Source of the DNA: a virus | Strand: one strand, 5' to 3' | Virus record (IMG/VR): IMGVR_UViG_3300044800_000040 | Location: 1-64,000 of that record | Length of the DNA: 64,000 nt | Part shown: piece after piece, positions 2,937 to 49,311 of the stretch | Layout: the number at the start of each line of letters is the position of its first letter | Position numbering within the stretch: position 1 is the stretch's first letter | Program-made: the position numbers and the translations under genes | The notes under the pieces: model-generated | The model's input: only the letters and a program-made list of their open reading frames with translations | Databases searched by the model: none | Told to the model about the DNA's origin: nothing

Positions 2937-3743
2937 ATGAAGCTGAAGGTCGATGAAAGCGGGAACGCAGTGCTTGAGGCCGGCATGCCCGTGTACGTCC
3001 ATGATGACGGCAAGGAAGTGCCGTTCGACGCCGCCGGGGCAATGTCCAAGATCAAGGAACTCAACGCCGAGAGCAAGACCCGCCGCGAACAGGCGGAGGG
3101 AGCCCTGGGCAAGCTCAAGGACTTCGAAGGACTGGACGCCAAGGCTGCCCGCGAGGCGCTGGAGCTGGCCAAGAACTTGAAGGACGGAGACTTGGTCAAG
3201 GCCGACAAGGTGGCCGAGCTCAAGGCCAGCATCGAGAAGTCGTACAAGGACAGCTTCGGGGCCAAGGAAGCCCAGTACCAGGAGCTGATCAAGCAGAAGG
3301 AGAGCGAAGTGTCCGCCAAGGATGCCGCCATCCACAAGCTGCTCATCAAGGGCGCGTTTGACTCCAGTCCTTTCCTCAAGGAGAAGACCACCCTGCTCCC
3401 CGAGTTCGCTTTCAAGTTCTTCAGCGAGTATTTCACGGTGGAAACCGTCAACGGCGAGCTCCGGGCCGTCGCGATGCTGAATGGTCAGCCCATTCTGTCG
3501 CGCTCCAACCCCGGCGAGTACGCCTCGGCAGAGGAGGCGATTGAGCACCTCATCGACATGCACCCCCAGAAGGACATGCTTCTCAAGGCCCCGCCCGCCA
3601 AGGGTTCCGGAGCCGCCCCCGCCAAGGGTGGCGCGCCCGGCACCAAGACCTGGCAGGAGCGGCACAAAGAAGCCCTTGCTCGGGGTGATGTGCAGGGAGC
3701 CATCGCCATCAAGAGAGAAGGAATGAGGCAGGCCGCCCAGTAA
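2937..3743 (+). CDS. Capsid scaffolding protein (predicted)
   Basis: This 268-residue, highly charged protein lies directly before the major capsid gene. Residues about 25-150 are Lys/Glu/Ala-rich and should form long coiled-coil helices. A Gly/Ala/Pro linker near residue 220 leads to a short basic C-terminal helix, the usual arrangement in scaffolds, where the basic end contacts the capsid protein. I chose the ATG at 2937 (MKLKVDESGN) because GGAGG precedes it; an in-frame ATG at 2904 lacks a site. No protease domain is seen. Confidence 0.65.
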   Translation: MKLKVDESGNAVLEAGMPVYVHDDGKEVPFDAAGAMSKIKELNAESKTRREQAEGALGKLKDFEGLDAKAAREALELAKNLKDGDLVKADKVAELKASIEKSYKDSFGAKEAQYQELIKQKESEVSAKDAAIHKLLIKGAFDSSPFLKEKTTLLPEFAFKFFSEYFTVETVNGELRAVAMLNGQPILSRSNPGEYASAEEAIEHLIDMHPQKDMLLKAPPAKGSGAAPAKGGAPGTKTWQERHKEALARGDVQGAIAIKREGMRQAAQ

Positions 3744-3775
3744 GCGCCCTGCTCTGACACTGCAAGGAGCACATC

Positions 3776-4738
3776 ATGGCCAATACCAACAACCCCGCGA
3801 CCGTCTGGAACTGCCCGAACTACACGGGCGAGCTCTACATGATCGGCGCCAACCAGACCCCCTTCCTGAACATGATCGGCGGTCTCGAGGGCGGGCAGGT
3901 CCGCACCGTCGCCGACTTCCAGTTCCCGATCAGCCAGCCCTGGTCGCTGGAAGCCGCTTCCCAGCCGGCCATCACCGAGACCGCTTCTCAGACCGCGCCC
4001 ACTGCGTGGACCTACGTGCGCGGCCAGGCCGTGAACACCGTCCACATCGTGCAGAAGGCCGTGAAGGTCTCCTACGCCAAGCAGTCCGTGACCGGGCAGA
4101 TCACCGCCGACACCACGACCTACCTCGTGGACGGCACCGAAGTGCAGCCTGTGCAGAACGAGCTCGACTTCCAGGTGACCGCGGCCCTGCGCCAGATCGC
4201 CGTCGACACCGAGCTCACCTTCCTGCGCGGCACCTACGCCCAGGCCACCAGCGCCGGCGTGGCGGCCAAGACCCGCGGCATCTGCACCGCGGCCAGCACC
4301 AACACCGTCGCGGCCTCCAGCGTCCGCCTGTCCAAGAGCCTGATCAACCAGCTCATCCGGACCATGGCCTCCAACGGCGCCCCGTTCCAGAACCCGGTCA
4401 TCTTCTGCAACGCCTTCAACAAGCAGATGCTGACCGACATCTACGCCTACGCCCCGATGGACCGCAACGTGGGCGGCGTCAACATCAAGCAGATCGAGAC
4501 CGACTTCGCCATGATCGGTGTGGTGTACGCGCCGCAGATGCTGACCACCACCCTGCTGGTGGCCGACCTCGCCGTCTGCAAGCCCGTGTTCCTCCCCGTG
4601 CCTGGCAAGGGCGTCCTGTTCTACGAGGAGCTCTCGAAGACGGGTGCCGCGGAGAACGGCCAGATCTACGGCCAGATCGGCCTCGACTACGGCCCGGAGC
4701 AGTACCACGGGACCATCACTGGCCTGCTCGCCTCCTAG
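3776..4738 (+). CDS. Major capsid protein (SU10/DUF5309-like)
   Basis: This 320-residue protein begins MANTNNPATVWNCPNYTGEL. The early 'NY.GEL', 'TPFLNMIGG' near residue 30 and the Ala/Thr/Gln-rich E-loop-like stretch match the SU10-type (DUF5309) HK97-fold capsid proteins. It sits after the scaffold gene with a strong AAGGAG site. Its very strong bias to C-ending codons suggests high expression. It should form the icosahedral shell. Confidence 0.85.
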   Translation: MANTNNPATVWNCPNYTGELYMIGANQTPFLNMIGGLEGGQVRTVADFQFPISQPWSLEAASQPAITETASQTAPTAWTYVRGQAVNTVHIVQKAVKVSYAKQSVTGQITADTTTYLVDGTEVQPVQNELDFQVTAALRQIAVDTELTFLRGTYAQATSAGVAAKTRGICTAASTNTVAASSVRLSKSLINQLIRTMASNGAPFQNPVIFCNAFNKQMLTDIYAYAPMDRNVGGVNIKQIETDFAMIGVVYAPQMLTTTLLVADLAVCKPVFLPVPGKGVLFYEELSKTGAAENGQIYGQIGLDYGPEQYHGTITGLLAS

Positions 4739-4772: not shown

Positions 4773-5189
4773 ATGATGACCGACAACAAGACGGGGCTGT
4801 CCCCGACCCAGCGTGACACCGAGATCATGATGGCCCTGGCCGCTGCCGGTGACCTTGTGTTCACCGTGTACCCCGCGACCTGCACCAGGGTGGCCACCTC
4901 GGCGGCTTGGAGCCGCGAAGTGCGCATCCGCCTCAACAGCGCCTCCCTGGACTGCCACACGTGGTTCAGCGGGGCCATCGCCAACGGCGTGTCCATCGGC
5001 GATACGGCGTCCGGCACTGCCGCCATTGCCAGCACCACCCTGACCTTCGTCCACGGTGAGGCCGTGGTGACCGTCACCGGCACTGGCGCGTTCGCCGCGA
5101 CCAACACCGACACCCTGACCATCGCCCAGGCGACGATCATGGGTGCGACCGTGGCCAGCAAGACCAGCGTCCAGACCTGGACCAGTTAA
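4773..5189 (+). CDS. Putative head decoration or accessory protein
   Basis: This 138-residue protein follows the capsid gene and has a strong AAGGAGG site. The N-terminus is charged; the rest is rich in Ala, Thr, Ser and Val in a beta-strand pattern, like small decoration proteins or Ig-like domains. I do not recognise a family. Position alone suggests that it binds the capsid surface. A perfect stem-loop follows its stop codon. Confidence 0.5.
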   Translation: MMTDNKTGLSPTQRDTEIMMALAAAGDLVFTVYPATCTRVATSAAWSREVRIRLNSASLDCHTWFSGAIANGVSIGDTASGTAAIASTTLTFVHGEAVVTVTGTGAFAATNTDTLTIAQATIMGATVASKTSVQTWTS

Positions 5190-5196
5190 CCAACCC

Positions 5197-5228
5197 AGGG
5201 CAGGGGCTTCGGATGAGGCCCCTGCCCT
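5197..5228. other. Perfect 11-bp stem-loop between head genes
   Basis: AGGGCAGGGGC (5197-5207) pairs perfectly with GCCCCTGCCCT (5218-5228) around a 10-base loop. No T-run follows on either strand, so it is not a standard terminator. It may stabilise the upstream capsid-region mRNA against 3' exonucleases or act as a weak attenuator. Confidence 0.6.
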
Positions 5229-5252
5229 ACACAACAACCGGAGGAAACCGGA

Positions 5253-5549
5253 ATGACCACTTTCTACCAGACTGAAGGCAAGGCCACTGTGGTGTGGGAC
5301 GCGGAGCAGGATTGCGCGCTGTGCGAGTTCGCGAACCGTCAGCTCGAGACGGACGACCCCAGGGTGATCGCCAAGCTGGAAGAGCTGGGCTACCCCAAGC
5401 AGGGCCAGCCGCTGAACTACTCCGACGCGGAGCAGATGGCGCAGATCGACCAGATCAACGACACGGGCGACAGCGGAGCCTCCCCCCAGGAGATGGCCGA
5501 GAAGGCTGCCGCCCCTTTGGCCAAGCCCACGCGCCGCGCCAAGAAGTAG
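5253..5549 (+). CDS. Hypothetical virion-region protein
   Basis: This 98-residue protein has GGAGG before its ATG. The first half contains a short Cys pair (CALC) and a segment resembling a small head-tail joining domain; the end is Ala/Lys/Arg-rich. I do not recognise the family. Its stop TAG overlaps the GTG start of the next gene, so the two are translationally coupled. Confidence 0.55.
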   Translation: MTTFYQTEGKATVVWDAEQDCALCEFANRQLETDDPRVIAKLEELGYPKQGQPLNYSDAEQMAQIDQINDTGDSGASPQEMAEKAAAPLAKPTRRAKK

Positions 5550-39127: not shown

Positions 39128-41095
39128 CTAGCCGCAGACCACCGCATAACAGGACAGGACGAGGCCGGCCCGGCCGCTGGCGTAGTAGGGCTCCTTGAAG
39201 CACTCCAGCACCAGGGCGGCGTGGGGGTTGTCCCCCTTGATCAGCACGCTGGTGAAGTAGCCGAGCACCGAGCGGCGGATGGACTCCTCGTCCTGGTCTG
39301 CCAGGCCACGTAGGATGGTGGCGATGGGTGCCCAGGTCAGCTTGCCCTTGCCCATGAGCGCACGACACAGCTCGATGGTGGCAGACAGGTCAGCCGCCGC
39401 CTTGTCCACCATCTTGACCTGATCCGCAGGGGAGAGGTCGATGAGCGCCTCGAGGATGGACAGGGCGAGCCTGGCACTGCCCACGGCATTGCGTGCGATG
39501 AGCTCAACCACTTCTTCCGACACCTTGGCCTTCTCGGCACGGCATACCCGGTTGACCAGGGCAATGAGCTTGGCTTCGGTAAGGCTGCTCACCTCGTAGG
39601 TTGTGAGCCGGGTCTTGACCGTCGGCAGCAGCTTCTGCGGCTCGGTCGTCGCCATGAGCACGAACACATGACCCGGAGGATGCTCCAGCCCTTTCAGCAA
39701 GGCATTCTGGGCGTCATTGGTGAGCTTGTGGCAGTTGTGTACCAACACCCCACCTGCGAAGTAGCTGGGGTGCCCATCGATCTCGAGGTCATGGTATTCT
39801 ACGAAGCCGCGACGAATTTCATCACTTGTGAAATCACTCGGGCCAAGTCCTGCATCACCTCCTGATTCGTAAAGCGCAACACCACCCACCCGAACGAGTG
39901 CAGGAGCTCCGTCTTTTTCGTATCCAGCAGTGAATTCCGCCTCGACCTGTGCCCACGTCCGTCCACTTCTACGGCAATTTTCAACACAGAATTTGCGATG
40001 TCCACCTTGTAGCTGTTCGGGCACCCCGGTGCTTTCCCCGTCGGGATCACCACTTCCATCGGCCAACCAAGTGCCGTCGCCAGCAGGCGTTGAGGTTCTG
40101 TTGTCTTCCCGTTCCCTCCCCGCGCCCCCTTCCATATGCGAAGGGAGCCCTTGGCTGTCTTGGTCGCACGGGCCTTCTCCAATGTGATGGGGTTGGCCGA
40201 CGGGTTGTCTCGCTGCATGCGCTGACTGTGCGCCTGTCTCTCCGCAGCCCCCTCTGGGGTCTCCATCAGAAACCGCTTCCGACTGATGGAAATCTTTGCC
40301 GCAACTTGCGCGTTGTGCACCTTGGCACGGACTTCCGGAAGTGCCATCCGTCTCACCGCTGCACATGACCTGGAGCATGTCTGCTGATTGTACTTCTCCT
40401 GTCGGTTCGGAAAGAACGGCATCGGTGTACTGCATACTGGGCACGGTCTCGTCGTTGTCATTAGGAACCTCCGCAAGCATCGCTGGTGAGCTTGTGCGGT
40501 CCACATTATGACAATTCATGGGGTATAACAAGTCCCCCTCACGAAGATCACCAGCGGGCACCCACCCTCGCGTGGTGCGGAACAGGTGCTCCCGAGAGCA
40601 GCGGATGTCCCCTTGGTCAGTATGCACCCGCGCTGTGCGCTCCAAGGGCACCTTGTTGACAAAGTGGTTGAGCACTGTGCGGAATCCCTGCATGGATTGC
40701 ACAAGTTCGCCGGGCTGGATGTCTTGAATGGGTCGCACCCCGCCCAGGCACACGACAGGTGTGTCGGCCGCGAAGCACTCGTCCAGGAAGAAGACCCGGC
40801 ACGGCCCGGCCATCGGCTTGAGCCGCATCTGCTGGCGCAGGTCACGGATGGAGTCGATGCCGCGGAAGTCCGCGCTGTCCACTTCCTTGAAGTCCAGCTC
40901 CATGTTGCAGCCCAGTTCGGCGGCGACGATGCGGGCAAGGGTTGTCTTGCCACAGCCCGACGGGCCGAGGAACAACATGGAGTGCGGGATGTTCTCCCGG
41001 TCACGGGCCAGGACGTTGCGCAGGGACTCGATCACCTGGGGGTTACCAAGCATCTCGTCCAGGCTTTGCGGGCGGTGTTTATTGTACAGCGACAT
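39128..41095 (-). CDS. Clamp loader ATPase interrupted by an intein
   Basis: This 655-residue precursor has Walker A 'GPSGCGKTT' near residue 45 and 'FFLDE' at 102-106 directly followed by the intein (107-454), then 'CHKLTNDAQNALLKGLEHP', the rest of the Walker B/sensor region, 'MATTEPQKLL' and the C-terminal collar. The spliced product of 307 residues matches phage replication factor C-like clamp loader subunits (T4 gp44). It loads the sliding clamp encoded at 43986. Confidence 0.9.
   Translation of the reverse strand: MSLYNKHRPQSLDEMLGNPQVIESLRNVLARDRENIPHSMLFLGPSGCGKTTLARIVAAELGCNMELDFKEVDSADFRGIDSIRDLRQQMRLKPMAGPCRVFFLDECFAADTPVVCLGGVRPIQDIQPGELVQSMQGFRTVLNHFVNKVPLERTARVHTDQGDIRCSREHLFRTTRGWVPAGDLREGDLLYPMNCHNVDRTSSPAMLAEVPNDNDETVPSMQYTDAVLSEPTGEVQSADMLQVMCSGETDGTSGSPCQGAQRASCGKDFHQSEAVSDGDPRGGCGETGAQSAHAARQPVGQPHHIGEGPCDQDSQGLPSHMEGGAGREREDNRTSTPAGDGTWLADGSGDPDGESTGVPEQLQGGHRKFCVENCRRSGRTWAQVEAEFTAGYEKDGAPALVRVGGVALYESGGDAGLGPSDFTSDEIRRGFVEYHDLEIDGHPSYFAGGVLVHNCHKLTNDAQNALLKGLEHPPGHVFVLMATTEPQKLLPTVKTRLTTYEVSSLTEAKLIALVNRVCRAEKAKVSEEVVELIARNAVGSARLALSILEALIDLSPADQVKMVDKAAADLSATIELCRALMGKGKLTWAPIATILRGLADQDEESIRRSVLGYFTSVLIKGDNPHAALVLECFKEPYYASGRAGLVLSCYAVVCG
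39734..40777 (-). mobile_element. Intein in the clamp loader, inserted at DE/CH
   Basis: The 348-residue intein starts with Cys in 'CFAADTPVVC', has a B-block-like 'CSREHLFRTTRGWVPAGDL' near its residue 70 and ends 'GHPSYFAGGVLVHN' before +1 Cys. Between about its residues 105 and 325 the frame is low in hydrophobic order and matches no intein endonuclease; it is the shadow of the nuclease gene in another frame. The insertion splits the Walker B motif between Glu and Cys. Confidence 0.92.
39799..40461 (-). CDS. EDxHD-type homing endonuclease overprinted on the intein
   Basis: This 220-residue protein starts at ATG 40461 with GGAGG 7 bases upstream and is read in a different frame from the intein around it. 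It has a zinc finger (CPVC, then CSRSC near residues 8-36), a basic middle, and a Vsr-like core: 'VLKIAVEVDGRGHRSRRN' near 160 followed by 'KKTELLHSFGWVVLRF'. The Glu-Asp-x-His-Asp-like residues match the nuclease family found in fractured split-intein genes of phages. It should spread the intein by cutting intein-free alleles. Confidence 0.85.
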   Translation of the reverse strand: MTTTRPCPVCSTPMPFFPNRQEKYNQQTCSRSCAAVRRMALPEVRAKVHNAQVAAKISISRKRFLMETPEGAAERQAHSQRMQRDNPSANPITLEKARATKTAKGSLRIWKGARGGNGKTTEPQRLLATALGWPMEVVIPTGKAPGCPNSYKVDIANSVLKIAVEVDGRGHRSRRNSLLDTKKTELLHSFGWVVLRFTNQEVMQDLARVISQVMKFVAAS

Positions 41096-41098
41096 GAA

Positions 41099-43786
41099 TC
41101 ACTCCATGATGTTGTGGCCGCACTTGGGGCAGCCGAAGACCTTTTTCTTGGTGACCTTGTCGAAGCCCTTGCGCATGAATGCACTGCCGCAGGGGCACTG
41201 CTTGGCTACCAGCTCCTTGAGGTTGTACCAGGGCTCGTCGACCAGGGTGCATTCAACCTCGATCTCCAGGGGCACGATGATCCACTTCCACTCGGCGACA
41301 AGCTCCTTGGTCATTATACGCCGGCAGGCGTTGACGACCATGTCCAGCTCATCGGGGTCGATGCTCATGACAATGGAGTCGTGGATCTGGCCGATGGGAA
41401 ACGACTTCCACTTCTCCTTGCGGGCAAGCTCGGTGATTCTGGCGAACGACCAGAGCAGGCAGTGGAACGCGCTCCCTTGCACGGGGTAATTGATGGCGTC
41501 GTTCTTCATCATGAGCCCGCCACACTGGAAGCCGGTCAAGGTCTTGAAGTAGCCGCGCTTGCTGTATGCCTTGAGATGGTCCTCCTTCCACTGCTGGTAG
41601 ACCGGGAAGCGTTCGTACCAGAAGTGCCGCTCCACCTTCTCGATGTGCTTGGCGAAGGTGTCCTGATTGCGGATGCCAACCGAGGCCAGGTGCTCGCGCA
41701 GAGGGATGCCGTCCGCGGTCTCCTCGTGGATGCCGTCGGCCCAGAGCCCCTTGGCACAAGCCTTCCACCAGTCGCCGTAGAACTGGGGGAACACGAACTT
41801 GTTCTTTGCTGCCTGGCGCAGCGGCTTGCTGACTTGCTTCTCCTTGAGCTTGTAACACTCGGCCGCCATGTCCCGGTGCATGTCCGTCGAGTCGTCGAAG
41901 ATGTAGGTGAGCATGGTCGGGTCTTCGTGGTAGCACGCGGCAACACGCACCTCGACGCCGGAGTAGTCCAGCTCCATCATGATGTGCCCAGGGTGCGGCA
42001 GGATGGCCCGGCGAGTGATCTTCTGGCTTTCCGGGTCACGCTTGGGCACGTTCTGGAAGTTGGGGTTGGAGGAGCTGCTGCGGTAGGTCACCACCGTGTG
42101 CAGGTTGAAGAACGGGTGCATGTAGCCGTCGACCGTCTCCCGCACCCAACCACCCAGGTACGTGCCCCGGATCTTGTCCAGCTTGCGGTACTCGAGCAGG
42201 TCGTCCACGATGGGGATGTTCATGCTGCGCAGGGAGTCCGCATCAACCGAGGGCTTGCCGCTGGCTGTCTTCTTTGCGATCTCCACCCCCAGGTCTTCCA
42301 CAATGACCTTGGCGAGCTGGTCGTCCGAGTCGAGGTTGTAGTTCGCCCCGTACCTGGCACGTAGCCCCTTGCCGAGCTTGGAGTCCATCACGGTGGCCTT
42401 GAGGTTCTTGCAGCGCCTGTCCAGATGGGAGAGCTGGCGGTGGCAGTAGTCCATGTCCATGCGCAGCCCTTTGACCTCGGCGTCGACCAGGGCAATCGCC
42501 CCGTCGTGCAGCAGGGTGTACGCTGGCATCAGCTTGCGCCGGGCCATCTCCTCCTTCTGCTTGAGCATGAGCCGGTGCTGCACCAGGGCATCCGTGCCGC
42601 CATACTTGAGCAGGGCGTCGATGGGTGCCTGGTGGATGCGGTTCATGGAGTTGGCGTTCTTGCGGTCCTTGCTCTCCAGGTACTTGCTGATCTGGGTCGA
42701 GTAGTCTGCCTGGCCGAAGTTGACATACGACTGGAACTTGAGGCCGTGTACTCCCTGGCGGTTGTCCAGGACGTGCGCTGCCAGCATGGAGCACCAATCC
42801 CAGGACTGCACTCTCTGGCGCAAGGCAACGATCGACCACAGCTGCTCGAACTTGAGGCCATGCGCCGACTTGCGCAGACCCTCGTCCGCCAGCATGACCC
42901 GCATGGCCGTCTGCACTTCCTTGTCGTGCATGGTGAAGGCTACGGCATGACCTGGGTCCTGGCATACCGATGCAGTGAAGATGCGGTGCCCCTCCGCTTG
43001 AGGTTTGCGTCCAGTTGTCTCCCAGTCAAAGGAGACGACGTTGTCGCGCCTCTTGGGCAGACTTCGCAGGTAGTTGATGACTTGCTTGGGCTCCCACAAG
43101 ATCTCAACCCCATCGGTGGGGTCTTCCCATGCGGGCAGGGGCTGGTCGACCAGGGTCAGCGCCGCCTTGAGGTCTTGCTTCCAGATCGTCCAGATGGCCT
43201 CGAGGTTCTCCATGCGCATGATGTAGCTGGGGTGGTAGGTCGGGCACACCCAAGCGCCGTATGTGTGCTCCGGGATGTGCCAGCCGCGCCACTTGCCAAT
43301 ACCCCCGGCACTGCGCTCGCTGTCGTCCTCCTCGTCCTCGAGGTAGCGGGGCTCGAGGATGGACTGCACCGCCACGTTGCCCAGGGGAATGATCAGCGAG
43401 GGCTTGTAGCGTTCGATGGCTTCCAGTACCCGGGGGCGGCAGCACTCGATCTCGATGTCCTCGGGGGTTCTGTTCTCTGGCGGCCGGCAGTTCACTGCGT
43501 TGGTCTTCCAGCAGTCCCGGTCGAGATCGATGTCCAGCTCGGCCAGGGTGTCGCGCAGGGTCTGGCCTGCCTTGCCCACCAGTTGGGTGTTGCGCACGTC
43601 CTCGGTGCGCCCTGGTGCCTCGGCTATGATCAGGATGCCCTTGCGCCCTTTGCCAGTTGGCTCCATGCGTGGAGAGCGGCAGGTCTTCCAAAGCCCGCAC
43701 CCGTCACAACCCAGGGCACGGGGGCTGCCCTTGGCACGGGCCTTGGAGATGACCGTGGTGACTTCGGATGCCTTAAAGAAGGCCAT
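41099..43786 (-). CDS. Uracil-DNA glycosylase-DNA polymerase A fusion with zinc ribbon
   Basis: This 895-residue protein has three parts. Residues 1-215 are a family 4-like uracil-DNA glycosylase: CDGCGLWKTC, 'IAEAPGRTEDVRNTQLVGKA' near 52, 'NAVNCRPPENRTP' near 95 and 'PTYHPSY' near 180. Residues 245-430 are a 3'-5' exonuclease with 'VSFDWETTG' near 252. Residues 470-850 are a family A polymerase: motif A 'MELDYSGVEVR' near 602, motif B 'RQAAKNKFVFPQFYG' near 655, motif C 'IHDSIVMSI' near 800 with Ser where Glu is usual. A zinc ribbon (CPCG...CPKCG) ends it. Confidence 0.9.
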   Translation of the reverse strand: MAFFKASEVTTVISKARAKGSPRALGCDGCGLWKTCRSPRMEPTGKGRKGILIIAEAPGRTEDVRNTQLVGKAGQTLRDTLAELDIDLDRDCWKTNAVNCRPPENRTPEDIEIECCRPRVLEAIERYKPSLIIPLGNVAVQSILEPRYLEDEEDDSERSAGGIGKWRGWHIPEHTYGAWVCPTYHPSYIMRMENLEAIWTIWKQDLKAALTLVDQPLPAWEDPTDGVEILWEPKQVINYLRSLPKRRDNVVSFDWETTGRKPQAEGHRIFTASVCQDPGHAVAFTMHDKEVQTAMRVMLADEGLRKSAHGLKFEQLWSIVALRQRVQSWDWCSMLAAHVLDNRQGVHGLKFQSYVNFGQADYSTQISKYLESKDRKNANSMNRIHQAPIDALLKYGGTDALVQHRLMLKQKEEMARRKLMPAYTLLHDGAIALVDAEVKGLRMDMDYCHRQLSHLDRRCKNLKATVMDSKLGKGLRARYGANYNLDSDDQLAKVIVEDLGVEIAKKTASGKPSVDADSLRSMNIPIVDDLLEYRKLDKIRGTYLGGWVRETVDGYMHPFFNLHTVVTYRSSSSNPNFQNVPKRDPESQKITRRAILPHPGHIMMELDYSGVEVRVAACYHEDPTMLTYIFDDSTDMHRDMAAECYKLKEKQVSKPLRQAAKNKFVFPQFYGDWWKACAKGLWADGIHEETADGIPLREHLASVGIRNQDTFAKHIEKVERHFWYERFPVYQQWKEDHLKAYSKRGYFKTLTGFQCGGLMMKNDAINYPVQGSAFHCLLWSFARITELARKEKWKSFPIGQIHDSIVMSIDPDELDMVVNACRRIMTKELVAEWKWIIVPLEIEVECTLVDEPWYNLKELVAKQCPCGSAFMRKGFDKVTKKKVFGCPKCGHNIME

Positions 43787-43985: not shown

Positions 43986-45011
43986 CTACACCAGCGAGAT
44001 GGCGTGCATGAAGTTGTCCCCGGTGAACAACATGGCGTTCTCCGAGACCGTGGTCTCCTCAAGGTGCGCCAGGATCTCGATGAGGAACTGCGGGTTGATG
44101 ACGACCTCGCGCTGCTCGCCGTCGTACTTGATGCGCCCGGTCTCCTCGAGCCAGCCGATCTTGCCCTGGGCCTTGACGGTGACCTTGCCCGGCTCCAGCA
44201 CCAGGGTGACCTCCTCATCGGAGTCGAAGTCCTTCTGGCTGAAGACTCCGGCACGCGACAGCATGTCGGTCACCATCTCCTGGGGCAGCATGAGGTCTTC
44301 GCCCTCAACGGAGAGGAAGTCGTCAAGGTCGGGGAACTTGTACTCCTCGTGGTCGATGGTGCGTGCGGACAGGATGGTGCCGGCTTCGGTGCGGAAGTGG
44401 ACCCAGCCGTCAACGACGCACTGGTCGACCACCTTGAACGCAAGCAGGGCACGGCATGTCGCCGCAGGGATGAGCACCTCGGCCTTGATGGCTCCGTCCT
44501 TCATCTTCCAGCGGGTGATGCGGAACTGGTCACAGGTCTCCAGCAACGCACCGTCCACATGCACGCAGGTCAGCGCCGGCTTGGTCATGTCCCGGCTGGC
44601 GCTGAACAGGACGAAGCGGAGCCCCTCCAGGAAGTTCTCGGGCAGCTTGTTCCACTTCTTGGCAGCGTTGATGCTGTCCAGGGGCAGGCGCACTTCGCTG
44701 TCCAGGCGGATGCCCGCGTTCAGCTTCTTGCCCTTGATGAGCAACTGGCTGCCCTCGTCGCCCTGGGTGACCTCGAGGATCAGGGTCTCGTCCTTGATGC
44801 GGGTCAGCAGCTTGTGCAGCTCCTCGGCCTGGACAGCACCCTCGAAGCCGACCTTGATCGGATGGGAGACGGCCAGCTCGTCGTTGAAGGTGACAACCCG
44901 GTCACCCATGAACGCGAACGAAGTGGAGTGCTCGACGATTTCCTTATTTGCCAGACCGGGACGCACCTTGGTGAGTGCGTCCAGCAGTTCGCTTGTTTTG
45001 ACCTTGGCCAT
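43986..45011 (-). CDS. Sliding clamp (DnaN-like)
   Basis: This 341-residue protein begins MAKVKTSELLDALTKVRPGL and shows the repeated beta-clamp pattern (FAFMGDRVVTFNDELAV; LEVTQGDEGSQLLIKG; VTVKAQGKIGWLEETGRI) with the closing 'FTGDNFMHAISLV', like the 'MPMRL/ISLV' end of DnaN-type clamps. It should be a dimeric or trimeric ring that tethers the polymerase. AAGGAGG precedes the ATG at 45011. The next small gene upstream overlaps its start by 68 bases. Confidence 0.85.
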   Translation of the reverse strand: MAKVKTSELLDALTKVRPGLANKEIVEHSTSFAFMGDRVVTFNDELAVSHPIKVGFEGAVQAEELHKLLTRIKDETLILEVTQGDEGSQLLIKGKKLNAGIRLDSEVRLPLDSINAAKKWNKLPENFLEGLRFVLFSASRDMTKPALTCVHVDGALLETCDQFRITRWKMKDGAIKAEVLIPAATCRALLAFKVVDQCVVDGWVHFRTEAGTILSARTIDHEEYKFPDLDDFLSVEGEDLMLPQEMVTDMLSRAGVFSQKDFDSDEEVTLVLEPGKVTVKAQGKIGWLEETGRIKYDGEQREVVINPQFLIEILAHLEETTVSENAMLFTGDNFMHAISLV

Positions 45012-45165
45012 CGAGAACCTCCTTGATGAGTTGCAGCGCGGGCTTGCGCGTTGAGTGTCGAGTAGGAAGCAGATCCCAGTAGGAGTGCAGGACTGCGTAT
45101 GCCCCGGAGCTTCGCACCATCTCCAACACATGGGGCACCTCCGCTCCGGCCAAGTAGATGATCAC
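44944..45165 (-). CDS. DpdA N-terminus-like mini-protein 3
   Basis: This 73-residue protein starts at GTG 45165 after AAGGAACAGAA: V/M-IIYLAGAEVPH, then 'AYAVLHSYWDLLP'. The 'IIYLAG....VL.SY' pattern is that of the first 35 residues of the DpdA gene product at 45541-46593. Its C-terminus overlaps the clamp gene and is basic. It shares a GTGA overlap with mini-protein 2. Confidence 0.65.
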   Translation of the reverse strand: MIIYLAGAEVPHVLEMVRSSGAYAVLHSYWDLLPTRHSTRKPALQLIKEVLDGQGQNKRTAGRTHQGASRSGK

Positions 45166-45320
45166 TTCTGTTCCTTCTTGAGCTCCGCCATGCACGCAGT
45201 CGTGTCACGTGCCTGGTTCGGGCTGGTTCTGAAGTAGCTGATCAGCACAGTCGCCACGGCACCGATGTCGGCGAACATGGCGAGATGTACTTTCTCCGCG
45301 TTGGCGATGTAGACAATCAT
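45162..45320 (-). CDS. DpdA N-terminus-like mini-protein 2
   Basis: This 52-residue protein reads MIVYIANAEKVHLAMFADIG, then 'ATVLISYFRTS' and a Lys-rich end. It repeats the 'xIVYIAxx....VLISYF' layout of the DpdA N-terminus and of the two other mini-proteins. ATGA links it to the gene before it. No catalytic residues are present. Confidence 0.65.
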   Translation of the reverse strand: MIVYIANAEKVHLAMFADIGAVATVLISYFRTSPNQARDTTACMAELKKEQK

Positions 45321-45541
45321 GCCACGCTCTCCGGGTAGTTGAGCAGGAGTTCGTGCATGGCGTCCTTGAGTGCCTCCTTGGTCATCTTGTACTCGTCCGG
45401 CCTGGAGAGGAAGTTGGGCTCCACCCGCAGGAATGCTTTGCTGGCCTGTGCCACTTTGTGCAGGCGGCGAGCGTAGGAGCGCAGCATGTTGCACTCCTCA
45501 CAGCCGCTCACAATCCCTTCAATCCTCGGTGTGCGGGTCAT
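45317..45541 (-). CDS. Hypothetical 74-residue protein after dpdA
   Basis: This protein (MTRTPRIEGIVSGCEECNML) has a CxxC (CEEC) near residue 14 and two helices rich in Arg/Lys and Leu. Its ATG overlaps the dpdA stop codon (TGATG). It may be a small partner in the modification cluster; function is unknown. Confidence 0.6.
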   Translation of the reverse strand: MTRTPRIEGIVSGCEECNMLRSYARRLHKVAQASKAFLRVEPNFLSRPDEYKMTKEALKDAMHELLLNYPESVA

Positions 45542-46593
45542 CACAGGAACCCCTTCCGGGTTGTCGGCTTCTTGAACGCCCAGGGATACTCCGGCAGAGC
45601 GTTCTGGAGGTCGAGGAAGTAGATCAAGTTGGCCTTGTCGCGCAGCAGGTAGTCGTTCGCCAGGCCCGGTTCGATGATGCGCTCGAGGCCGCGTGCGTTG
45701 CCGTCTGCCTTTGCCATGAAACGCTCGCTCTCGCCAAGCTCGTAGTCCGCGGGCACGGTGGTGAACTCGGACTTGCCCATCGGCAGCTCCTTGCTGTCGA
45801 GGTAGTCCATGACCACTCGCTGGACAGCCTGGGGCATGGTGGAGAAGTGCGCGCCGGCTTCCGTGGTGTTCGGCGACCTGGCACTCACGAAGATCTTCCA
45901 GGCTTCCTCAAGGTAGTCGTACTTGCCGCCCTTCCACCTGGGCACGTAGATGCTGCCCATGCGCGAGGACATCAGCCAGGAGGTGGAGTCGACGCTGAAC
46001 CAGGGGTAGCGGATCATGAGCCGCAGGCTGGTCATGCCGAAGCCGTGGACGCGCACCTTGGGCATGCCGTCCGGCCCGCAGATGTGCTCACCGAAGATAG
46101 AGTCGAGCCAGGGCTGCAGGTCCCGGGTAGCGATGGGCACCATGCCGCCGAGGGCAATGTAGTCGTACTGCTCCATGTACTCGTGCAGGTACTTCACGTC
46201 CTCGCCGTAGTGGAAGCACGGCATCGGGCGCAGCCCCTGGCGCTCCATCGCTTTCTGGTTGTCGCGGGTGCCCTCGGGGTCACCGATCTCGTCGAGGTTG
46301 GCGTACACCTCGAGGTACTTCTTGTTCGCTTTGATGAAGTCGCAGTATTCCTTGATGTCGATGGTGACGCCCTTGGTGAATGCGGAGTACGCACCCGAGT
46401 CCAAGAACAGCTTGATGTCGCGGCTCATGACTTGCTCCTTGTGAGTGGTGCGCGCCGCACGCATGGTGGCGTGCCTGTCCTGTCCAGCCTCGCAGACGTA
46501 GAAGTACGAGATGAGGCGGTACGGCGGGCCGTCCTCCAGCACCATCGCTTCACGTCCGGCCGAGCCGGTCTCACCTGCGAGGTAGATTTCCAT
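45541..46593 (-). CDS. dpdA: DpdA-like DNA 7-deazaguanine transglycosylase
   Basis: This 350-residue protein resembles phage TGT-fold enzymes that exchange guanine in DNA for preQ0 or a derivative. An N-terminal 'MEIYLAG' segment with 'RLISYFYV' precedes the core: 'LFLDSGAYSAFTKG' near residue 60 (catalytic Asp candidate), 'YANLDEIGDPEG' near 95, 'CFHYGEDVKYL' near 125, 'ALGGMV' near 148 and 'VHGFGMTSL' near 185. AAGGAGCAAC before ATG 46593 supports the long start; a second site before an internal ATG (46428) is also good. It works downstream of folE, queC, queD and queE nearby. Confidence 0.85.
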   Translation of the reverse strand: MEIYLAGETGSAGREAMVLEDGPPYRLISYFYVCEAGQDRHATMRAARTTHKEQVMSRDIKLFLDSGAYSAFTKGVTIDIKEYCDFIKANKKYLEVYANLDEIGDPEGTRDNQKAMERQGLRPMPCFHYGEDVKYLHEYMEQYDYIALGGMVPIATRDLQPWLDSIFGEHICGPDGMPKVRVHGFGMTSLRLMIRYPWFSVDSTSWLMSSRMGSIYVPRWKGGKYDYLEEAWKIFVSARSPNTTEAGAHFSTMPQAVQRVVMDYLDSKELPMGKSEFTTVPADYELGESERFMAKADGNARGLERIIEPGLANDYLLRDKANLIYFLDLQNALPEYPWAFKKPTTRKGFL

Positions 46594-46750
46594 GTTGCTC
46601 CTTCTGTGCTTTGACCCAGACGGCGATGGACGGATGCTCCGCGCCGCGCCTGCTCCTGATGGCGAAGAACGAGGTGAGCCGGTAGGGGTAGAACTGGATC
46701 ATGTGTTCGTCCATCTCCATCTCCCCCTTGCCGGCCGCGTAGATGATCAT
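46571..46750 (-). CDS. DpdA N-terminus-like mini-protein 1
   Basis: This 59-residue protein begins MIIYAAGKGEMEMDEHM, then 'FYPYRLTSFFAIRSRR'. It repeats the DpdA N-terminal layout (IYxAG then RLxSFF). Its ATG directly follows the folE stop (TAGATG) and its end overlaps the dpdA start by 23 bases. Three such mini-proteins and DpdA itself share this domain. Confidence 0.7.
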   Translation of the reverse strand: MIIYAAGKGEMEMDEHMIQFYPYRLTSFFAIRSRRGAEHPSIAVWVKAQKEQHGNLPRR

Positions 46751-48523
46751 CTACTTGCCGCAGAGCGCCATGAGTTCGGCGCGGGCGCTGGAGCCCTTGA
46801 AGGTGTCCTCAAGGAACACGCCCTTCAGCGAGCTGTAGCCCATCACCGAGTGCTGCTTCTCAACGCCCCGGGCGGTCATGCACAAGTGCTTGGCCTCGAT
46901 GATGCAGGCGGCACCCTTGGGCTGGAGGTGCGTCATGAGCGCCTCGGTGACCTGCTCGGCAATGCGCTCCTGCACCTGGAGCCGGCGAGCGTAGACCTCG
47001 AGGATGCGGGCCAGCTTGCTGACTCCGATCACCTTGCCGTCGGGGATGTAGGCGATGGTGGCGTGCCCGAAGAACGGGATCATGTGGTGCTCGCAGTTGT
47101 GGACGACAATGCCGTTCGCCACGAAGTTCTGGTGCCCTGGCACTTCCATGCACCACACGTCTTCGGTGTAGTTGAGCTCCTCAACTCCGAGTACCTTGTG
47201 ATTCGGTACGCGCTGCTCCTTCCAACTGCGCTTGACGGACTCGGACCGCTTCTTGCACATTGCTTCCCGCTTGTCCGGGTCAGCCATCATCTTTGCCAGG
47301 CCGGCCCACTGCGCGGCATCGAACGCTTCCCGCTCCTGCGTCGTCATCCTCGCCCAACGCTCGGCCTCGCGTGCCCCACGCCCGTCCTCTTGCGCGTGCA
47401 AGCGGGAGTGAGCACTCGGGGACAGGATGGACAGATTGCTCGGGTCATTGTTCGCCGGGTTGCCGTCGAGATGGTGGACGTGCTCATGCTGGCGCAGCTC
47501 TCTGCCGAGCATGGCCGCCATGATCTTCCGGTGCTCCGCAACCAGCTTGCCGTCCTTGTACTGAATGTGGCTCCTGGGCTTGTCCGCGTGCATGATGATC
47601 CCACGGAGCAGGGCAACCACCGATTCGCCGGGAAGCAGGTCCGCCGCCGCCACCCACCCGCGCTTGTATGTCAAGAAGCGGTGGTTGGGGGTGCAGATGA
47701 CAGTATCCTTATCGGTGTACACCCGCACCAGCTTGGCGTCGCGCTGGGTGATCCTCGGGTTCTGGCAGCGCACGAGGTCGAACCGCTGGGTGTCCTCGTT
47801 CCAACTGTACACCCAGTCTCCGTCTGCAAGGCGACTGATGGGCACACGGCCCTTTGGGGTTTCGATGAAGGTGGAGCCTACAAGGCACGTGGAGTAGAAC
47901 TCCACGTCCTTGAGGTAGACCATGCCGCCGCTGGCCTTCTCGTTGAAGACCTTGAACAGCTCCTCCACGTCGGAGTGGTAGCCTTCGAAGAGCTTGCCGT
48001 ACGACTTGACCACCCTGGCCGGGGTCTCCAGCAAGCCCTCGCGGTTGGGGTCCTCGCCGATGTACTCGAGGATGCGGACGATGTTGTCCTCCGGCCCGGT
48101 CTCGCCCTTCATGGTCTCCCACCAGAACTCGACCCAGGTGTCCAGGGTGAACAGGCCGGCTTCGATCATGTAGTTGCGCTGCACCGGGGTGAAGTCAGAG
48201 TTGTTCGGCTGGGCGGAGCTGTGCTTCTTGTACGTCAGCGCCGCGAAGGGGAAGCCGAAGAACCGCTCCCTGGTCGCCCCGGTGTCACAGATGTCGTCGA
48301 CCACCAGGACCTCGGGGTCCGGCCCGGCGGGCAGGTCGGTGCGGATGGGCAGGTTCAGCAGGTTGGAGAGGATGATGGCCGGGTACAGGCCACCACGGGG
48401 CACGGGGTAGATGCTGCGCAGCATGCTGCCAGGGGGGAGGAACTGGCACTGCACGCGGATGTGCTTGGCAAGCTCACGGCAGAGCTGTTCCACAGTAGAG
48501 TGGTCGAGGACAACGCGGGGCAT
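46751..48523 (-). CDS. folE: Phosphoribosyltransferase-GTP cyclohydrolase I fusion with intein
   Basis: This 590-residue precursor starts after AAGGAG. Residues 1-140 are a purine phosphoribosyltransferase-like domain with 'PVPRGGLYPA' near 40 and the PRPP loop 'VLVVDDICDTGAT' near 72, ending 'TWVEFWWE'. Residues from 145 are GTP cyclohydrolase I: 'GEDPNREGLLETPARVVKSY' near 157, then the intein (213-476), then 'CEHHMIPFFGHATIAYIPDG' with the zinc Cys and His, and later 'EAKHLCMTARGV' with the second zinc Cys. FolE makes the first intermediate of preQ0 synthesis; the PRTase may salvage guanine. Confidence 0.92.
   Translation of the reverse strand: MPRVVLDHSTVEQLCRELAKHIRVQCQFLPPGSMLRSIYPVPRGGLYPAIILSNLLNLPIRTDLPAGPDPEVLVVDDICDTGATRERFFGFPFAALTYKKHSSAQPNNSDFTPVQRNYMIEAGLFTLDTWVEFWWETMKGETGPEDNIVRILEYIGEDPNREGLLETPARVVKSYGKLFEGYHSDVEELFKVFNEKASGGMVYLKDVEFYSTCLVGSTFIETPKGRVPISRLADGDWVYSWNEDTQRFDLVRCQNPRITQRDAKLVRVYTDKDTVICTPNHRFLTYKRGWVAAADLLPGESVVALLRGIIMHADKPRSHIQYKDGKLVAEHRKIMAAMLGRELRQHEHVHHLDGNPANNDPSNLSILSPSAHSRLHAQEDGRGAREAERWARMTTQEREAFDAAQWAGLAKMMADPDKREAMCKKRSESVKRSWKEQRVPNHKVLGVEELNYTEDVWCMEVPGHQNFVANGIVVHNCEHHMIPFFGHATIAYIPDGKVIGVSKLARILEVYARRLQVQERIAEQVTEALMTHLQPKGAACIIEAKHLCMTARGVEKQHSVMGYSSLKGVFLEDTFKGSSARAELMALCGK
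47096..47887 (-). mobile_element. Intein with in-frame HNH endonuclease in folE
   Basis: The 264-residue intein runs from Cys in 'CLVGSTFIETPKG' to 'GHQNFVANGIVVHN' before the FolE zinc Cys (+1). Block B is 'CTPNHRFLTYKRGWVAAADL'. The middle holds an HNH nuclease in the same frame: 'HEHVHHLDGNPANNDPSNL' then 'SPSAHSRLH', followed by basic helices. It interrupts FolE at the catalytic zinc site, so no activity is possible before splicing. Confidence 0.9.
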
Positions 48524-48525
48524 GT

Positions 48526-49311
48526 TTACTCCTTGGTGTGGTCGCCACAAACGACACGGCGTCCGCCCGGCAGGTTGGGGTCGTCAGGGCCACCGACGAG
48601 GATGGTGTGCTCCGCGGTTAGCGTATTGTGCGAGATGTGGGGCAGCGGGTCGCGTCTCCCAGCCTTGGCGAAGGCCTCGATGCGTTCGACGCAGGAGCCG
48701 CACTTTCCGCAAGAGGTGGGCTGGTCTTTGTAGCAGGTGCGGGTCAGCTCGTAGGGCACATTCAGCAGGGTGCCCATGATGGCGATGTCACCCTTGTCCA
48801 TGCCCAGGAAGGGAGCCAGGATCTCCACCCGGGAGCCGGTGCCCAGGAACAGGGCGGTGTCCATCGCCTTGATGAACTCGGGCCGGCAGTCCTCGTAGAT
48901 GGCGTGATCACCCGCATGGACACCCAGGGCGATGTACGGGGCGCCCTTGCTCCAGGCCAGGCCCGCCATGAACGAGCTGAAGATGATGTTGCGTGCGGGC
49001 ACGACGGTCGCGCTCATGCTGGCGTCGGTGTAGTGCCCCTCGGGGATGGCCGGGCCGTCGCCCATGAGCGCCGACTTGAAGCCGATGAAGGCATCGGTCA
49101 GGTCGATCAGAGTGCGCTGCAGGCCGTAGTGGACGCAGAGCTTGTCGGCGGCGGCGCTCTCGTACTGGTTGTGCTTGCTGCCGTAGATGAAAGAGATGGG
49201 GATGGGCTCGCAACCCTTGTCAATCAGATGGGCGAGCAGGGTGGCACTGTCCATGCCACCGCTGACGGCCACAACGACCTTGGTGCCTGGGACGAACTGC
49301 GGTGTGATCAT
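48526..49311 (-). CDS. queC: QueC, 7-cyano-7-deazaguanine synthase
   Basis: This 261-residue enzyme has the PP-loop 'VVAVSGGMDSATLLAHL' near residue 13 and a C-terminal zinc cluster (TCYKDQPTSCGKCGSCVERI) near 210. It turns 7-carboxy-7-deazaguanine, ATP and ammonia into preQ0. There is no N-terminal amidotransferase domain, which argues against the archaeosine-type G+ base. Its last codons (AAG GAG TAA) form the ribosome-binding site of folE. Confidence 0.92.
   Translation of the reverse strand: MITPQFVPGTKVVVAVSGGMDSATLLAHLIDKGCEPIPISFIYGSKHNQYESAAADKLCVHYGLQRTLIDLTDAFIGFKSALMGDGPAIPEGHYTDASMSATVVPARNIIFSSFMAGLAWSKGAPYIALGVHAGDHAIYEDCRPEFIKAMDTALFLGTGSRVEILAPFLGMDKGDIAIMGTLLNVPYELTRTCYKDQPTSCGKCGSCVERIEAFAKAGRRDPLPHISHNTLTAEHTILVGGPDDPNLPGGRRVVCGDHTKE

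Follow-up and report, generated by a model that had tools for sequence, protein, structure and literature searches.

Free-standing copies of the DpdA N-terminal module in phages and a probable split DpdA with exchangeable, tract-switched small subunits

The dpdA locus and its small proteins

We analysed a stretch of 64,000 nucleotides (the window; positions 1 to 64,000 of the 68,690-base virus record IMGVR_UViG_3300044800_000040), for which a DNA similarity search of phage records returned no match. The minus strand carries, in order, queC, folE, mini A, dpdA, ORF D, mini B, mini C, a sliding clamp gene and DNA polymerase A (Table 1), so that preQ0 synthesis genes, assigned through PF06508 for queC and through sequence and synteny for folE, adjoin dpdA. 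The three small ORFs, here called minis A, B and C, are all present on this strand where an earlier note on this DNA had placed them. The mini A start codon lies directly 3' of the folE stop, and mini A overlaps dpdA by 23 nt; the D/B and B/C junctions are 4-nt ATGA/GTGA overlaps, the GTG start of mini C overlapping the mini B stop, and the last 68 nt of mini C (~20 codons) lie inside the clamp gene. Stop-start overlaps, which the earlier note had described for the minis, therefore occur at D/B and B/C but not between A and dpdA; likewise, the minis do lie beside dpdA as it proposed, but ORF D, which sequence comparison found unrelated to them, separates dpdA from B. Such NTGA overlaps are uninformative on coupling, as most minis have a second codon beginning with A. 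We also rejected the recurrent 'KEQ' at mini C-termini as a sign of protein homology; it appears where the reading frame runs through the AAGGAG ribosome-binding site of the following gene.

Table 1 Features of the window around dpdA.
Feature	Position	Strand	Evidence
queC (preQ0 pathway)	48526..49311	-	PF06508, E 4.6e-52
GTP cyclohydrolase I (folE, preQ0 pathway), with intein-like insert	46751..48550	-	sequence and synteny
Mini A, 59 aa, free-standing DpdA N-module	46571..46750	-	ATG start; ORF and family profile
dpdA, whole ORF	45541-46593	-	
N-module fused to DpdA, residues 1-55	46429..46593	-	AlphaFold model and window-free profile
DpdA catalytic core (β3-β8), carries D65 and D202	45541..46428	-	alignment, AlphaFold model, structural match
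ORF D, 75 aa, between dpdA and mini B	45317..45544	-	ORF list; no family match
Mini B, 52 aa	45162..45320	-	ATG start; similarity to C, weak in family profile
Mini C, 73 aa	44944..45165	-	GTG start; similarity to B and family profile
Sliding clamp (DNA polymerase processivity factor), conserved neighbour	43986..45011	-	family search and synteny
DNA polymerase A, with N-terminal uracil-DNA glycosylase superfamily domain	41099-43786	-	PF03167, E 2.4e-21 (N-terminal domain)
Clamp-loader-like gene, with second intein-like insert	39128-41095	-	

Two neighbouring genes contain intein-like inserts, folE (CLVGSTFIETPKGRVPISRL ... GIVVHNCEHH, with an HNH-like stretch) and the clamp-loader-like gene (CFAADTPVVCLGG ... 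GVLVHNC), and the glycosylase domain of DNA polymerase A is encoded in the same ORF as the polymerase.

The start and the later box that the minis had been said to share with the DpdA N-terminus were found as described (A, MIIYAAG..RLTSFF; B, MIVYIAN..VLISYF; C, VIIYLAG..VLHSYW; DpdA, MEIYLAG..RLISYF). Mini A aligned along its whole length with the DpdA N-terminus (z 6.5, 31% identity over 54 aa) and mini B with mini C (z 9.1, 46% identity over 37 aa); the remaining pairs were weak when compared singly. A family profile built from 126 minis of other phages and zero window sequences placed the DpdA N-terminus, A, C and B at ranks 1-4 among 1,081 six-frame segments (E-values 1.8e-6, 6.9e-5, 1.1e-4 and 0.32, respectively). 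Minis A, B and C belong to a single family together with DpdA residues 1-55, mini B being placed there mainly by its likeness to C. Profile-profile comparison (hhalign) of the minis with canonical DpdA N-termini gave a probability of 96.4% (E 1.1e-9), and the minis carry the N-module signature MxIYxA ... LxS[YF]. Their residues with no or hardly any variation (M1, I3, Y4, A6, L25 and S27) match the DpdA N-terminus, and the (near-)invariant columns agree (M1/A6/L27/S29 in DpdA, M1/A6/L25/S27 in the minis). All three window minis (52-73 aa) end before β3, with no β3-β8 core and neither catalytic aspartate; they are modules, not DpdA enzymes. Single-sequence searches with A, B and C over phages and viral contigs yielded nothing usable, a match of mini B to a capsid gene (E 0.5) being dismissed as chance; Pfam and PDB sequence searches gave no family for the minis, and PHROGs essentially none, with one weak match to a single member.

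An AlphaFold model of the window DpdA, built with 47 sequences (pLDDT 90.2, pTM 0.88), shows a TGT-type (βα)8 barrel, into which the fused N-terminus folds as β1 (residues 2-6), α1 (12-18) and β2 (25-29), with block pLDDT values of 81, 65 and 86. Residues 38-57 mostly have pLDDT below 50, and strand 3 begins at residue 61; this linker, disordered in the model, is the place where relatives are split. The best structural match was DpdA 7ui4 (Z 18.4, rmsd 3.5, 272 residues, over residues 1-336), followed by archaeosine TGT, and Zymomonas TGT (ZmTGT) aligned from its own residue 40; a family missing from the match lists was not counted as excluded. The catalytic pair D65 and D202 (DSG and VDS motifs) is invariant in the 47 sequences. 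DpdA replaces guanines in phage DNA, and the window protein is a putative enzyme of this kind that would insert a 7-deazaguanine into DNA. Structure prediction, which the earlier note had proposed as a check, was less informative for the free protein: mini A modelled alone gave a low-confidence model with no strands (pLDDT 66.5, pTM 0.34), which would fit a fragment that needs a partner.

In ZmTGT (PMC5395182), the pocket that takes ribose 34 and phosphate 35 has Val45 and Leu68 as its floor and Asn70 at its side, and the loop-helix of residues 47-62 screens the dimer interface. The N-module therefore carries part of the target pocket. The conserved L and S of the minis would correspond to Leu68 and Asn70, if the β2 register is read from the L-x-S / L-x-N pattern.

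Core-only and fused DpdA in related viruses

Alignment of DpdA led to 80 viral loci, and the closest of these (44-58% identity) have strings of 50-75 aa ORFs around dpdA with the pattern M-K-I-Y-L-A ... R-L-L-S-Y; minis of ~55 residues come in sets in dozens of uncultured relatives. A second search used the DNA pattern of the mini alone, without DpdA information, and returned 51 viral loci, 42 of them with a DpdA core within the stretch examined; among the other nine, seven have the array near an end of that stretch, and the remaining two (L088 and L125) give no match to the mini profile. Arrays of 2-6 minis are frequent at dpdA-bearing loci, and metagenome-assembled genomes give the same picture (L138, L139, L141, L142, L145 and L154). 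Relatives maintain the arrangement folE - [minis] - dpdA - [minis] - clamp - [minis] - polymerase, with minis on both sides of the clamp gene. Loss of the mini genes in close relatives, which would have spoken against the earlier note's proposal, was looked for, and the genes proved to be retained.

Most DpdAs of this clade begin 3-18 residues before FLDSGA[FY]SA, that is, at barrel strand 3. At least one mini lies near the core-only DpdA at 27/29 loci (22 by profile; five diverged and recognised by motif, L017, L029, L058, L059 and L152), whereas full-length Queuovirinae-type DpdA loci have none (0/51; 49 by script, L037 and L061 by eye), counts that cover only loci found through DpdA, include some near-duplicate loci and depend on classes partly assigned by eye. 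The two core-only loci where no mini was found are L030, at a contig edge, and L140. Minis are thus near-always present where DpdA lacks the module, which strongly supports the earlier suggestion that they are partners of the enzyme.

Module clusters mix free and fused members; for example, L110, L126 and L128 carry the GTPG..RER..SFWDI module as a free protein and L093 carries it fused, and the type of module that is fused varies from phage to phage. The idea of domain duplications, also raised in the earlier note, has strong support: the minis duplicate the strand 1-helix 1-strand 2 module and are evolutionarily interchangeable with DpdA's own. An internal ATG near the start of the core is retained in 16 of 18 fused DpdAs, seven of which also have a ribosome-binding site, a combination found in none of 54 Queuovirinae-type DpdAs. 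The fused dpdA of the window is one of these seven: AAGGAG and six bases precede an internal M56 at 46428, where the core can start. The free minis of the window may act otherwise than those of core-only relatives, because the window DpdA already has a fused module.

Several loci depart from these arrangements. L018 carries tandem dpdA genes with overlapping ends (2037-2960 and 2957-3808), the second with a strongly diverged N-module. DpdA ORFs of ~600-670 aa, with ~300 extra internal residues that are possibly inteins, occur in L049 (5854-7854), L099 (78-1913) and L113 (293-2107). A contig binned as Thorarchaeota (L152) encodes a core-only DpdA and one diverged mini (5180-5365); given this putative assignment, the split form may reach archaeal viruses.

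Selection and repeat tracts in the minis

Orthologous minis gave dN/dS values of 0.00-0.46, mostly below 0.2, indicating that they are translated and kept; we rejected pure decay on these values. Between the two mini motifs, in the β1-α1 loop, many relatives have a tract of G, C or GA. Across 67 loci with near-duplicates removed, repeat tracts occur at 3.41/kb in modules and 0.039/kb elsewhere in the relatives, an 88-fold enrichment, and in-frame modules hold 35 tracts against 2.9 expected (sd 1.7, maximum 8, 300 synonymous redraws). Tract-bearing copies make up 22/38 of the out-of-frame class and 35/139 of the in-frame class (p 3e-4), the former being defined by motif and so including some chance pairs.

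Tract lengths at the same site differ between related phages (C7/C8/C9, G8/G9 and varying GA numbers); L108 (= L010) and L098 share 3,734 bp in which a single base differs, G8 against G7 within a mini. Tract-length alleles that change frame, the mark of a phase-variable locus, are therefore present in relatives, as read from metagenome assemblies in which homopolymer errors are possible. The window modules contain no G/C run of at least 7 and no (GA) tract, so that phase variation does not apply to the window itself.

Frame differences of this kind could also stem from programmed ribosomal frameshifting or from assembly errors, an explanation that concerns only the switching and is compatible with a split enzyme. 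The material consists of metagenome assemblies with homopolymers, and contig L098 ends within a C-tract, both of which speak for it. Tract lengths of related phages, however, vary by one base or one GA unit, the tracts lie far above synonymous expectation, and to our knowledge GA tracts are not -1 slippery sites; we regard this explanation as doubtful, if still worth keeping in view.

A probable split transglycosylase and its nearest parallels

Computation shows that the minis are homologous to the DpdA N-terminus, accompany core-only DpdAs, interchange with fused modules and evolve under purifying selection, that the fused module has its place in the barrel, and that in relatives the modules are enriched in tracts with alleles of different length. 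On these grounds we consider it probable that these viruses encode a split DpdA with exchangeable β1-α1-β2 subunits, switched by tracts in the relatives. The minis would be free-standing copies of the first strand-helix-strand of the (βα)8 barrel, the core providing β3-β8 and both catalytic aspartates, and the small subunit providing β1-α1-β2 and part of the pocket. One phage would offer one to six or more different small subunits to a single core, from a single translationally coupled operon shared with folE, clamp and polymerase, sometimes with one subunit fused to the core. Each mini would dock on the core and complete a preQ0-DNA transglycosylase, different minis would confer different activity or neighbour-base preference, and in relatives poly-G, poly-C or (GA)n tracts in the β1-α1 loop would shift minis in and out of frame during growth (phase variation).

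According to the title of Olsen et al. 2023, as cited in PMC11945000, one Queuovirinae lineage of phages inserts preQ0 at a single GA motif. Because the pocket lies next to the 3' neighbour of the base that is exchanged, and in view of that title, we infer that the minis could set different neighbour preferences. In its fullest form, which we put forward tentatively and as less likely than the split itself, the arrangement would be a combinatorial phase-variable system, in which each subunit gives another target context and the repeats diversify a population's modification against host restriction.

The minis might instead regulate DpdA, blocking or damping it at the β1-β2 site or the dimer face, for instance to time or limit modification, with no catalytic partnership. 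The β1α1 loop-helix covers the TGT homodimer interface, and the window DpdA has its own module, with which extra copies could compete. A pure inhibitor is nevertheless unlikely at loci where a core-only DpdA is found with a single mini (L019, L029, L058 and L059), the minis retain the pocket residues, and modules occur fused to DpdA too; we judge regulation unlikely overall. Retained pocket residues and purifying selection also leave the 'decoys' of the earlier note without support.

Somewhat less probable again is that the minis act alone, for example in anti-defence or nucleobase binding, reusing a fragment of the DpdA fold while the operon merely co-expresses them. The minis are highly diverse and have phase-variable tracts, as arms-race genes typically do, but linkage to dpdA is near-strict, minis are absent from the 51 loci with full-length DpdA, and the fused modules argue against this reading as well. 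That the minis are what is left of tandem dpdA duplications in decay, or ORFs that arose by chance, appears highly improbable: some copies are indeed out of frame, but selection is purifying, types are conserved across distant phages, partial core remnants are almost never seen (one in L121), and the frame shifts concentrate at the repeat tracts.

If the split-enzyme reading is correct, nature would have produced an enzyme in which exchangeable subunits of two strands complete the barrel, and phages would have an equivalent of the phasevarions of bacteria; the choice of DNA target by DpdA would become directly testable, as would within-population diversification of phage DNA modification. The plainer result alone, that dozens of viral genomes have a small-protein family tied to split DpdA and apparently not described before, corrects the annotation of these genes. 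The phage DpdA reports that we found in the openly accessible literature name no small subunit, split gene or repeat switch.

The system shares with phage and bacterial DpdA (7ui4) and with TGTs the barrel, the catalytic aspartates of the core and, for DpdA, the adjacent preQ0 synthesis operon; known DpdAs and TGTs hold β1-α1-β2 in one chain, whereas here it is often missing from the core and would be supplied by one to many small proteins. Eukaryotic TGT (QTRT1/QTRT2) pairs a TGT with a non-catalytic partner, and engineered half-barrels (HisF) demonstrate that barrels assemble from fragments, both resembling the split DpdA proposed here; QTRT2, however, is a full-length homologue, unlike a 2/8 fragment. 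We know of no natural 2/8 + 6/8 barrel split with several alternative pieces.

Among switchable systems, the nearest functional parallel is bacterial DNA methyltransferase genes with frame-shifting AG repeats, for which PMC3498834 describes a case in the type III methyltransferase of Mycoplasma. The specificity subunits of type I R-M systems (HsdS) and the phase-variable Mod genes of phasevarions likewise combine one modification core with an exchangeable or switchable specificity part and frame-shifting dinucleotide repeats. Here, in contrast, the enzyme is a phage base-exchange enzyme, many modules are encoded at once, and the exchangeable part would be two strands of the catalytic barrel rather than a separate recognition domain.
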